From NCBI RefSeq assembly GCF_003428875.1, contig NZ_QQRS01000002.1, forward strand, positions 1 through 64,000: a DNA stretch of 64,000 nt, read 5' to 3'. The translations under genes and the position numbers were made by a program. Positions 8,722-54,876 of the stretch are shown here, piece by piece. Each line of letters opens with the position of its first letter. Positions within the stretch are counted from its first letter, which is position 1. Source of the DNA: Planomicrobium okeanokoites. Its GTDB lineage: Bacteria > Bacillota > Bacilli > Bacillales_A > Planococcaceae. Under the pieces are notes generated by a model. It ran no database searches and was not told the origin of the DNA. It worked only from the letters and a program-made list of their open reading frames with translations.

Positions 8722-9687
8722 TTAAAATATACTCAAATCCCATTCTTTCGAGATTTGGCGAAGCATCATTGTGCCTGCAGCACTGTTTCCTTGAACATCG
8801 ATTGCTGGTCCGTATACGCCGATTCCGGCGCCAGCACGGAATTCATAGGTCTGGGAATGCAATTTAGGTGGGACAGCAGCCATTATGCCGCCGGACACTC
8901 CACTTTTAGCGGGTATGCCGACATGCGCGGCAAAATTGCCTGAAGAATTGTACATCCCGCAAGTCACCATAAGAACTTTGGCCACTTGCGCAATCTCATC
9001 GGAGAAATGCTTAACTTTGGTGATTGGATTGTAGCCGTCATAAGCAATGATCAGTCCTATCAAGGCGAGGTCTTTCGTGGAGACTTTGATGGAGCATTGG
9101 CGAATATAAATATCCAGCGCTTCTTCCACTTCGATTTCCAGGAACTTCGCTTCTTTCAGATAATAAGCCAACGCGCGATTGCGGTGTGAGGCTTTCCATT
9201 CAGAATCGTAAACTTCCCGATCCATATCAAGTGGATGGCCGACCAGCTCTTCAAGAAAATGCAGCAGATATTCATATTTCTTCTGACTGTTCTGGCCTGG
9301 CAACAAAGCGGAGATGGTGATGGCTCCTGCATTGATGAAGGGGTTGAAAGGTTTATTTGGACGATGAATTTCAAAAGGGATGATTGAGTTGAATGCTTCT
9401 CCTGTCGGTTCAACATCGACCCGTTCCAACACGAAGTCCAGCCCGTAATGGCAGCTTAAGGCGATAAACGTCAAAGCCTTTGAAATACTTTGCAGAGTAA
9501 ACTCTATGTCAGTGTCTCCTGCGCAATAATAGTTTCCTTCTTCATCGAGCATGCAAATACCCAGTTTGCTCGGATCGGCTTTGCCAAGTTCCGGAATATA
9601 CTGGGCAGTCGTACCAAGTATCACGTGCCCTCTGTTTTCTTCAACCCACTTTTGGAGCTGCTGCTGTATTCTTGGATTAGTTTGCAC
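8722..9687 (-). CDS. glsA: Glutaminase A
   Basis: A cytoplasmic serine-dependent glutaminase (beta-lactamase-like fold) converting glutamine to glutamate and ammonia. All 321 residues expected for the family are present. The nucleophile motif is QSISK (Ser67, Lys70). Other conserved stretches are EPTGEAFNSI, NPFINAGAI, SGNFAAHVGIPAKSGVSGGI and GVYGPAIDVQGNSAAG. The start is GTG, 5 nt after GGAGGG. It is a single-gene unit; a nested repeat element occupies the 5'-upstream gap and may be close to its promoter. Confidence 0.95.
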   Translation of the reverse strand: MQTNPRIQQQLQKWVEENRGHVILGTTAQYIPELGKADPSKLGICMLDEEGNYYCAGDTDIEFTLQSISKALTFIALSCHYGLDFVLERVDVEPTGEAFNSIIPFEIHRPNKPFNPFINAGAITISALLPGQNSQKKYEYLLHFLEELVGHPLDMDREVYDSEWKASHRNRALAYYLKEAKFLEIEVEEALDIYIRQCSIKVSTKDLALIGLIIAYDGYNPITKVKHFSDEIAQVAKVLMVTCGMYNSSGNFAAHVGIPAKSGVSGGIMAAVPPKLHSQTYEFRAGAGIGVYGPAIDVQGNSAAGTMMLRQISKEWDLSIF

Positions 9688-9749: not shown

Positions 9750-9990
9750 AGAAAAGCGTAAGCGCCCGGTAAGCTCTGAAAGGCATAAGACAGACCAATG
9801 AAGTGGCCTTGGCCGCGCAGTCTCGAAAAGCGGAAGTGCCTGTTCAGCTCTGACAGGTGTAAGGCGAACCAGCGAAGTGGCGCTCTTTGCCACGCAGCTG
9901 GTTTGACTTATATCCCGAAGAGCTAGGCACTGGAGACTAGACATTGGACTGGCTTATGACCCGAAGAGCTGGGCCGCTGAAGTCTGGACA
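9750..9990. repeat. 122-bp palindromic element, outer copy split by insertion
   Basis: The left 75 bp (9750-9824) and the right 47 bp (9944-9990) together make one 122-bp element of the family seen at 11777, 33203, 54631 and 54755. They are separated by a second, diverged copy. Arms AAGCTCTGAAAGGCATAAG and CTTATGACCCGAAGAGCT give a long imperfect hairpin. Confidence 0.8.
9825..9943. repeat. Inner copy nested in the outer element
   Basis: It begins GAAAAGCGGAAGTGCC and ends GAGACTAGACA, with the same internal landmarks (CAGCTCTGACAGGTGTAAG, GTGGCGCTCTTTGCCACGCAG, CTTATATCCCGAAGAGCT) but more substitutions than the others. It interrupts the outer copy near its centre. No clear target-site duplication was found. 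Confidence 0.75.
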
Positions 9991-9995
9991 ATAAA

Positions 9996-10020
9996 ATCCC
10001 CCTGCACCCTGCAGGGGGAT
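9996..10020 (-). terminator. Terminator of mhqD
   Basis: Perfect 11-bp stem ATCCCCCTGCA/TGCAGGGGGAT with a CCC loop, 8 bp after the mhqD stop; TTTTATT follows on the minus strand. Confidence 0.9.
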
Positions 10021-10027
10021 AGTTTCC

Positions 10028-10630
10028 CTAAATTTTGCTGTACCAAACTTTGGCTGCTTCGACTTCAGGCATCGTCAGCTGATGGCCCTGGTTTTCCCAG
10101 TGAAGCTCTACATCTGCGCCTGCATCCTGCAACAGTTTCTCAAGATCTTCCGATTCATGCGCCGGGCAGATCGGATCGTTTGTTCCAGCCGCGATAAATA
10201 CTGGAGTTCCATTTAATGCAGGCAATTCCGTATCTCTATTAGGTACCATCGGATGATGGAGAATGGCTGCTCTTAATGCATCATCATAAGTGAACAGTAG
10301 ATTCGCAGCGATGTTCGCTCCGTTCGAGTAGCCCACTGCAGTAACGTTCGTGCGGTCAAAACCGTATTGTTCAGCTGAATCCGCGATAAATTGATACAGT
10401 TCTTCTGTGCGGAGCTTCAGATCCTCCATGTCGAATACGCCTTCAGACAGGCGTTTGAAAAATCTTGGCATGCCGTTTTCCGAGACATTTCCCCGGACAC
10501 TTAAGACAGATGCTTCCGGGTCAATATGTGCAGCAAGCGGCAGCAGGTCGTTTTCCGTGCCTCCTGTTCCGTGCAGCAATAGTAATACCGGTCTCTTTGG
10601 ATCTTTCCCAGCTTTAAAAATGTGTTTCAT
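10028..10630 (-). CDS. mhqD: MhqD-type carboxylesterase
   Basis: A 200-residue alpha/beta hydrolase of the phospholipase/carboxylesterase family. The oxyanion region is LLLHGTGGTEND, the nucleophile motif GYSNGAN (Ser102), the acid Asp152 in GTNDPICP and the histidine His183 in NQGHQL. Sequence and length closely resemble B. subtilis MhqD, an esterase of the MhqR regulon induced by methylhydroquinone and catechol. That identification is supported by an MhqR-type operator 63 bp upstream of the start codon. The natural substrate is unknown. The ATG follows GGAGGTTATTTT. It is monocistronic, bounded by two strong terminators. Confidence 0.88.
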   Translation of the reverse strand: MKHIFKAGKDPKRPVLLLLHGTGGTENDLLPLAAHIDPEASVLSVRGNVSENGMPRFFKRLSEGVFDMEDLKLRTEELYQFIADSAEQYGFDRTNVTAVGYSNGANIAANLLFTYDDALRAAILHHPMVPNRDTELPALNGTPVFIAAGTNDPICPAHESEDLEKLLQDAGADVELHWENQGHQLTMPEVEAAKVWYSKI

Positions 10631-11776: not shown

Positions 11777-11898
11777 AGAAAAGCGACGGCACCCGTTAAG
11801 CTCTGAAAGGCATAAGACTGACCAGCAGAGTGGCGCTCTTTGCCACGGCAGCTGGGCTGGCTTATGACCCGAAGAGCTGGGTCGCCGGAGTCTGGACA
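11777..11898. repeat. 122-bp palindromic element
   Basis: Complete copy beginning AGAAAAGCGACGG and ending GTCTGGACA, followed directly by another AGAAAAGCG stub. It lies between the chromate-transporter terminator and hslO. Confidence 0.8.
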
Positions 11899-33202: not shown

Positions 33203-33320
33203 TGTCCAGACTCCGGCGACCCAGCTCTTCGAGTCATAAGCCAAATCAGCTGCGCGGCCAAAGCCACTTCGCTGATCCGTCTTATGCTTGTCAGAGCTGA
33301 ACGGGTGCCGTCGCTTTTCT
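33203..33320. repeat. 122-bp-family palindromic element, inverted copy
   Basis: Complete copy in reverse orientation relative to the others (starts TGTCCAGACTCCGGC, ends TCGCTTTTCT). It sits between the YebC stop codon and its terminator. Confidence 0.8.
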
Positions 33321-39257: not shown

Positions 39258-39528
39258 AAAAAAAGGCCCTTCACTCCTCACATAAAGATGCAAGGGGCGA
39301 AAAGCCTTTATTCGCGGTACCACCCTAATTCGCTGCTGATGCACAGCCTCATTGGTCCAAATGCTTAACGCGCACGAAACGGAAAGGCCTACTGTGATTC
39401 GGCCCATCTATTCAGGAGTGCTGATCCGGGAGGAAAACGCTGATTTTCACCATCCATCAGCTCTCTGCAGATTTCCATACCCAGACCTTGTCTCCATCTA
39501 AATAATTTTCTGTATTGGAATTTCATCC
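39258..39528 (-). promoter_or_regulatory. T-box riboswitch, probable tRNA-Ser
   Basis: The conserved T-box core AGGGTGGTACCGCGA is at 39312-39326 (read on the minus strand). It is followed by a long GC-rich terminator hairpin ending in T6 near 39258, competing with the antiterminator. Stem I lies around 39440-39510. The best specifier is AGC at 39439-39441 in GAAAATCAGCG, a serine codon matching the downstream serA pathway. Stem I details were not folded. Confidence 0.88.
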
Positions 39529-54630: not shown

Positions 54631-54752
54631 AGAAAAGCGCAAGCGCCCGTTAAGCTCTGAAAGGCATAAGACGGATCAGCAGAGTGGCGTTCTTTGCCAC
54701 GGCAGCTGAGCTGGCTTATGACCCGAAGAGCTGGGCGGCTGGAGTCTGGACA
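54631..54752. repeat. 122-bp palindromic element, tandem copy A
   Basis: Full copy immediately downstream of the DUF2512 gene, 4 bp after its stop codon; more than 90% identical by eye to copy B. Confidence 0.85.
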
Positions 54753-54754
54753 GA

Positions 54755-54876
54755 AGAAAAGCGACAGCGCCCGTTAAGCTCTGAAAGGCATAAGACGGAT
54801 CAGCAAAGTGGCGTTCTTTGCCACGGCAGCTGAGTTGGCTTATGCCCCGAAGAGCTGGGCGGCTGGAGTCTGGACA
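54755..54876. repeat. 122-bp palindromic element, tandem copy B
   Basis: Second direct copy, 2 bp after copy A, followed at 54878 by the first 13 bp of a third unit (AGAAAAGCGACGG), suggesting slippage or serial insertion. Confidence 0.85.

Follow-up and report, generated by a model that had tools for sequence, protein, structure and literature searches.

How does one copy of a small non-coding repeat come to lie inside another copy of the same repeat, and is such an arrangement a chance hit or a property of the repeat itself? The question is raised by positions 9750-9990 of the 64,000-nt stretch of Planomicrobium okeanokoites DNA analyzed here (the window), where a first-pass annotation described a full copy of a palindromic element nested within a second one. 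We examined this locus together with its relatives in the same genome, the genus, the order and the class, considering where the copies lie, how they fold, how often nesting has occurred and what could move them.

A Complete Copy Interrupts Another at a Clean Junction

Sequence matches confirm the nested arrangement (Table 1). In the orthologous site of genome G007 the outer element is uninterrupted and reads GCGCAG followed directly by TTGGACTGG. By comparison with this site, the insert comprises 123 bp (TCTC plus a 119-bp copy) and the outer element without it 118 bp. The 122 bp annotated earlier for the outer element had counted the TCTC that arrived with the insert, and its supposed equality in length with three other copies does not hold, the copies in the window measuring 121, 117, 121 and 121 bp. 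Relative to G007 the nested junction is clean, with no base lost and none duplicated; the target duplication that the annotation had suggested looking for is thus absent from this site. The TCTC, together with the preceding AG, can pair with GAGACT near the 3′ end of the insert.

Table 1. Features of the nested locus and other family copies in the window
Feature	Positions	Strand	Basis or remark
Outer element, 5′ part (interrupted copy)	9750..9820	+	Aligned to uninterrupted G007 ortholog
TCTC, 5′ extension brought along with inner copy	9821..9824	+	Missing at G007 empty site
Inner element, complete copy, nested subfamily N1	9825..9943	+	Sequence/model comparison
Outer element, 3′ part	9944..9990	+	Aligned to uninterrupted G007 ortholog
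Hairpin after A-rich stretch, beside element 3′ end	9996..10020	.	Sequence, hairpin listing
Glutaminase, neighbor gene	8722..9687	-	PF04960, E 1.3e-103
Alpha/beta hydrolase (dienelactone hydrolase/carboxylesterase type), neighbor gene	10028..10630	-	PF01738, E 4.7e-11; PF02230, E 9.9e-10
Uninterrupted family copy, 121 bp	11778..11898	+	Sequence matches/alignment
Uninterrupted copy, 117 bp	33203..33319	-	Starts 9 nt after same-strand stop codon; terminator-like hairpin behind
Tandem pair, first copy, 121 bp	54632..54752	+	Starts 4 nt after same-strand stop codon (TGA)
Tandem pair, second copy, 121 bp	54756..54876	+	Sequence matches

The hairpin adjoining the 3′ end of the outer element fits, by its orientation, a terminator-like hairpin of the minus-strand hydrolase gene. 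At the same locus in genome G041 (L058), the outer element carries an internal deletion between two GGCCGC repeats that leaves 69 bp, and this deletion is a decay route of the element. At the Rfam gathering score the window yields a single match, a T-box leader (RF00230, 104 bits) at 39290-39509 on the minus strand, and none over the element; two weak matches to the tandem pair, obtained at a loose E-value, fall far below the gathering score and were rejected.

The Family and Its Distribution

Copies of the element extend from (A)GAAAAGCG to AGTCTGGACA and measure 115-122 bp; they are small and without coding capacity, the open reading frames listed over them being mechanical. At E <= 0.001, the genome-wide search proposed in the annotation gave 68 matches to this 241-bp segment within its own genome, including a second nested composite (C23:27891-28134), and 40 copies from this genome were aligned over 124 columns. 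Head-to-tail arrays are frequent, with linkers mostly of 2-5 bp, and arrays of at least seven tandem copies at 119-124 bp spacing occur at G040:C1:3309612-3310577, L313 and L112.

Of 120 genomes of the order searched with a covariance model (at most 30 candidates scored per genome, rough E-values), 82 contain the family, and they fall in 10 of 17 genera. Three of the 61 genomes in a class-wide sample were positive, namely the window's own and two of other families (35 and 53 matches), and the 58 match-free genomes include four from the window's own family. An exact 21-nt arm of the element occurs at no fewer than 108 loci in named genomes, which among the matches listed are all titled Planococcus or Planomicrobium. 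Plasmid and phage collections gave no match to the element, and we found no name for the family either in the open-licence PMC papers searched or as an Rfam family over the element. Furthermore, in 28 loci of other genera no Rfam match spans the whole element. One of these loci, L319 in genome G072 (genus g22), contains Bacillaceae-1 RNA (RF01690, 74 bits, gathering score 35) at 1364-1430, restricted to the apical part of a 174-nt copy at 1323-1496. A known orphan RNA is here carried by the element; neither the window nor any of the other 27 loci scanned matches RF01690.

Several variations on the basic unit were seen. Behind the hairpin, some copies (L106:1938 onward, L092:5477 onward, L322, L328, L340 and others) share a conserved tail in which about 33 nt precede AAAAGTTATACTTTCTTATCCA, with a total length of about 57 nt; a model trained on 15 such tails matches 20 of 204 cluster flanks at E < 0.01, and among 30 loci with the tail pattern the hairpin ends 14-37 nt before the tail in 22 and is missing in 8. 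A second repeat family (GCGACGAAGC and GCAGCGATGCAGGAGCA, in either orientation) sits in the left arm of copies at L013, L031, L180, L173, L119, L197, L150 and L055, so that three-level mosaics exist, as at L055. In genome G069, a match to the family model lies between 23S and 5S rRNA genes (L333:1501-1615).

A Specialized Subfamily Enters Its Relatives at One Site

Nested copies account for 37 of 334 full copies (320 unique full copies before extra loci were added), a count in which they are enriched because one search pattern targeted the beginning of N1. Without exception among the 37, the insert shares the orientation of its host, whose left piece runs up to model position 72-75 and whose right piece begins at 71-79. 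Sources not picked for nesting (n = 143), which comprise the loci around matches to the window composite in its own genome and those around the listed matches to the 21-nt arm, gave 12 nested copies among 220 full copies, all at the same position and none in the opposite orientation.

Most of the nested copies belong to one subfamily, N1 (33 of 37), the remaining 4 to another. Conversely, the N1 model, itself trained on nested copies, outscores the general model by 18 bits or more for 43 copies. Of these, 31 had been flagged as nested, another 7 show such flanks on visual inspection, 2 are followed by just the right half of a host and 3 are non-nested. Where the two scores lie closer together, copies are mostly non-nested. 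Five or more of the six bases before the nested GAAAAG can pair with the 3′ end of the insert in 30 of the 37 nested copies, versus 35 of 270 non-nested copies of other subfamilies. Subfamily N has entered its relatives on some two dozen occasions, always in a single orientation and at a single position, the apical-hairpin foot; nesting is the habit of a specialized subfamily, beyond a chance hit.

Nested Insertions Look Independent

The number of separate events was estimated after 9 of the 37 composites had been dropped as orthologs or duplicates, which left 24 N1 composites and 276 pairs. Identities between inner copies have quartiles of 0.85, 0.88 and 0.91, those between their hosts 0.75, 0.79 and 0.82, and those between random non-nested copies 0.74, 0.77 and 0.81; the inner copies are more alike than the outer ones in 253 of 276 pairs, and the two identities correlate at 0.25. 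When the 28 hosts of nested copies were labeled on a tree built from 291 sequences, 24 label changes were required, close to the number for random labels (mean 27.1, range 23-28). Because the hosts are as dissimilar as random copies and scattered on the tree, the roughly two dozen insertions look independent, and because the inner copies are alike while their hosts are diverse, unlike hosts received the inner copy.

These comparisons bear directly on the reading in which the composite, about 241 bp long, spread whole as a single unit. The same layout does recur in many composites, but a host diversity equal to that of random copies, inner copies more alike than their hosts, the correlation of 0.25 between the two, the lack of a single clade of nested hosts and the existence of uninterrupted orthologs all argue against it, and we consider it very improbable.

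Gains, Losses and the Case for Conversion

Occupied and empty versions are known for both parts of the window composite: the glutaminase/hydrolase spacers of G003 and G049 lack the outer element, and G007 lacks the inner one. The comparison of strains suggested at first pass has thus yielded empty sites at both levels, and since such sites exist, copies do not stand at identical positions in all relatives. That the element is mobile is well supported.

Six syntenic stretches of 64-73 kb were compared, with identities of 94.4% between G005 and G007, 87.0% between G000 and G057, 84.3-86.1% between these pairs and 78-80% to G049 and G041. At several loci the pattern of occupancy is not in line with these identities. 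At the window locus the inner copy is present in G000, G057 and G005 and absent in G007; at the locus of window position 11778 there is a composite in G007 and none in G000, G057 or G005; a third locus holds a composite in G007 and an uninterrupted outer element in G057. Inner occupancy therefore conflicts with relatedness, and to account for it, copies must have been gained repeatedly at one place, lost precisely or exchanged by conversion.

Conversion in its full form would have the inner copy arise once in an outer element and then move from outer to outer by ectopic gene conversion, with no transposase for nesting. Position and orientation are identical every time, the hosts are homologous to one another and inner presence or absence at orthologous outer elements departs from relatedness, all of which would fit such a process. 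The tracts would, however, have to be extremely short each time, because the 30 nt of host sequence flanking the insertion (identity quartiles 0.70, 0.78 and 0.90) are no more alike than the outer elements as a whole (median 0.79). Furthermore, in the one pair compared base by base, the outer parts of G000 and G007 show only 4 differences over 117 positions, and the insertion site is clean. Conversion seems to us an unlikely source of the nested copies.

The Fold Is Maintained by Paired Changes

One long hairpin accounts for the alignment, with 98.5% of cells paired. This fold is maintained by paired changes: 16 of 33 pairs have changed on both sides, compared to a mean of 8.0 in shuffled alignments and at most 5 in slid versions, and 35 further pair types were counted versus 31.1 in shuffles, the weakest of five measures and one reached by 7 of 500 shuffles. 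As single strands, the inner copy and three other copies fold with z scores of -3.2 to -4.0 relative to dinucleotide shuffles, and the composite with a z score of -5.6. The predicted fold of the composite retains the outer stem and the apical hairpin, and the inner hairpin forms a third arm.

Ordinary Copies Often Lie behind Sense Stop Codons

For the position of ordinary copies relative to genes, neighbors were defined as mechanical open reading frames of 80 aa or more. Of 208 clusters, 17 lie inside such a frame and were omitted, and 175 of the remaining clusters have neighbors on both sides. In 88 of 125 cases the 5′ end of the element is found -3 to 9 nt beyond a stop codon on its own strand, whereas its 3′ end is equally close to a facing stop codon, the antisense arrangement, in 1 of 110. 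In the 85 cases at 0-9 nt the stop codon is TAA in 57, TAG in 14 and TGA in 14; since all three occur, the element does not supply one built-in stop codon. Uniform placement with random orientation predicts 11.7 of 175, compared to 81 observed and a maximum of 24 in 10000 simulations, with -3 to 9 nt counted as seen and 10 positions in the null.

The same arrangement is found outside the genus. Of 33 loci, drawn from six genomes representing four other genera and from two representing other families, three that displayed the same array were left out; of the 30 used, 15 start -2 to 5 nt after a sense stop codon, the nearest facing stop codon being at least 42 nt away. A strong hairpin lies within 60 nt on the 3′ side of 65 of 187 clusters and on the 5′ side of 13, and in none of 187 shuffled 3′ sides. 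Before 165 first copies there is a preference for A (0.74 at -1 and 0.61 at -2); ordinary insertion sites are A-rich, with short repeats perhaps present at a few. With respect to replication, the matches listed for five genomes divide 53 to 35 (p 0.07) between the two orientations, which is not a clear strand preference.

This placement could reflect selection rather than targeting. Insertion would then be random and the position behind stop codons would result from selection on 3′ UTRs, in which domesticated copies tune mRNA ends or translation. The conserved fold and the restriction to the sense strand are in agreement with such a role, and REPs within 15 nt of a stop codon have been reported to stall ribosomes (excerpt of PMC12306157). 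Close relatives, on the other hand, gain and lose copies at the same loci, and nested copies are left unexplained. We regard selection of this kind as a serious possibility, somewhat short of an even chance; it concerns the ordinary copies and is compatible with mobility. The placement by itself is not new, since published REPs also adjoin stop codons: 446 of 4,072 lie within 15 nt in one E. coli study, and an earlier one gives 260 of 496 (excerpt of PMC12306157).

Relation to MITEs and REPs and the Search for an Enzyme

The first-pass annotation grouped the element with MITE/REP elements and had it depend on a transposase supplied elsewhere. The membership is not borne out. The nested site lacks a target duplication, and tail-less copies have no terminal inverted repeat, their ends GAAAAGCG and AGTCTGGACA not being inverted repeats; a possible short terminal inverted repeat was noted by eye only in copies with the extra tail. 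REP/BIME and RAYT systems likewise consist of intergenic palindromes in many copies, often near stop codons (PMC3733652; excerpts of PMC2817692 and PMC12306157), but those units are of 20-40 nt with a GTAG or CGTC tag, whereas the present element is far larger, at about 120 nt, has a different start and neither flanks nor tracks Y1 genes. Among the loci examined, we found no larger, autonomous element sharing the loop position or the tail.

A transposase acting in trans would presumably be needed for an element of this kind. None was found, Y1_Tnp (PF01797) being the family tested over genomes. Transposition of the IS200/IS605 type uses a Y1 transposase, makes no target duplication and inserts beside a fixed short target. 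A REP-like system moved by a Y1 transposase, RAYT or IS200/IS605, would share with the element its palindromic and directional character and the nested site without duplication. Within the genus, 29 of 46 genomes have a PF01797 match, and proximity to stop codons is a feature of REPs as well (excerpt of PMC12306157). The distribution of the genes points the other way. PF01797 has no match in the window's genome (27 contigs, 99.31% complete), and a copy lies within 1.5 kb of 1 of 20 PF01797 loci, a gene of IS200 length, the other 19 being without one. Over 120 genomes, Y1 genes are present in 53 of 82 with the element and 25 of 38 without it; being equally common in both, they do not track the element. 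Moreover, two REPs in inverted orientation are described as invariably flanking RAYT genes (excerpt of PMC2817692). Together, these observations make a Y1 system improbable here. The second repeat family of the genus was considered as the REP of these Y1 genes and rejected, with single motif hits only, at 8 of 20 loci.

Discussion

Small non-autonomous palindromic repeats are a known kind of element, and site-specific insertion of IS elements into REPs is known too (excerpt of PMC1525189). In the latter systems (IS1397, ISKpn1, IS621, ISPsy8 and others), as here, each copy enters a palindromic repeat at the same position; those insertion sequences are, however, autonomous, carry a transposase gene and are unrelated to the repeat, whereas the insert described here is non-coding and a relative of its target (excerpt of PMC1525189). 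BOX, RUP and SPRITE of pneumococcus are likewise structured small repeats in a Firmicute, and 36 of 58 coding sequences overlapped by BOX end within it, with SPRITE enriched at gene 3′ ends; site-specific nesting within the family is not reported in the excerpt of PMC3049150, on whose description this comparison is based. bcr1 of the Bacillus cereus group, also compared by description, is a mobile-looking structured repeat of 147-167 nt in Bacilli (table of PMC2267715). In the literature searched (open-licence PMC papers), we met no non-coding family member that targets its own relatives.

The repeat, about 120 nt long and widespread in its bacterial family, is probably a mobile foldback element that is non-coding and non-autonomous; an enzyme supplied in trans would insert its folded strand directionally at sites recognized by structure. 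From the directionality, the missing duplication at the nested site and the conserved fold, we infer an enzyme acting on the folded single strand. Such an enzyme would recognize that strand through the conserved feet GAAAAGCG and GTCTGGACA and would insert it in one direction at a site recognized by its structure. The target of ordinary copies would be the 3′ end of a gene, and that of subfamily N the apical-hairpin foot of a relative, where a nested insert would add an arm and leave the outer fold intact. A more specific proposal goes further: a kin-targeting foldback subfamily would insert as a folded single strand only at the apical-hairpin foot of its sisters, ordinary members would go behind stop codons, and an undescribed trans-acting enzyme of Bacilli would carry out structure-guided, termination-coupled transposition. 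We hold this fuller version to be rather unlikely.

Some two dozen natural insertions into a single defined target of 120 nt, together with empty sites for comparison, make structure-based choice of a target directly testable. Likewise, the sense-only anchoring of this family-wide repeat behind stop codons makes it testable whether these elements are placed by the chemistry of insertion or by selection on 3′ UTRs.
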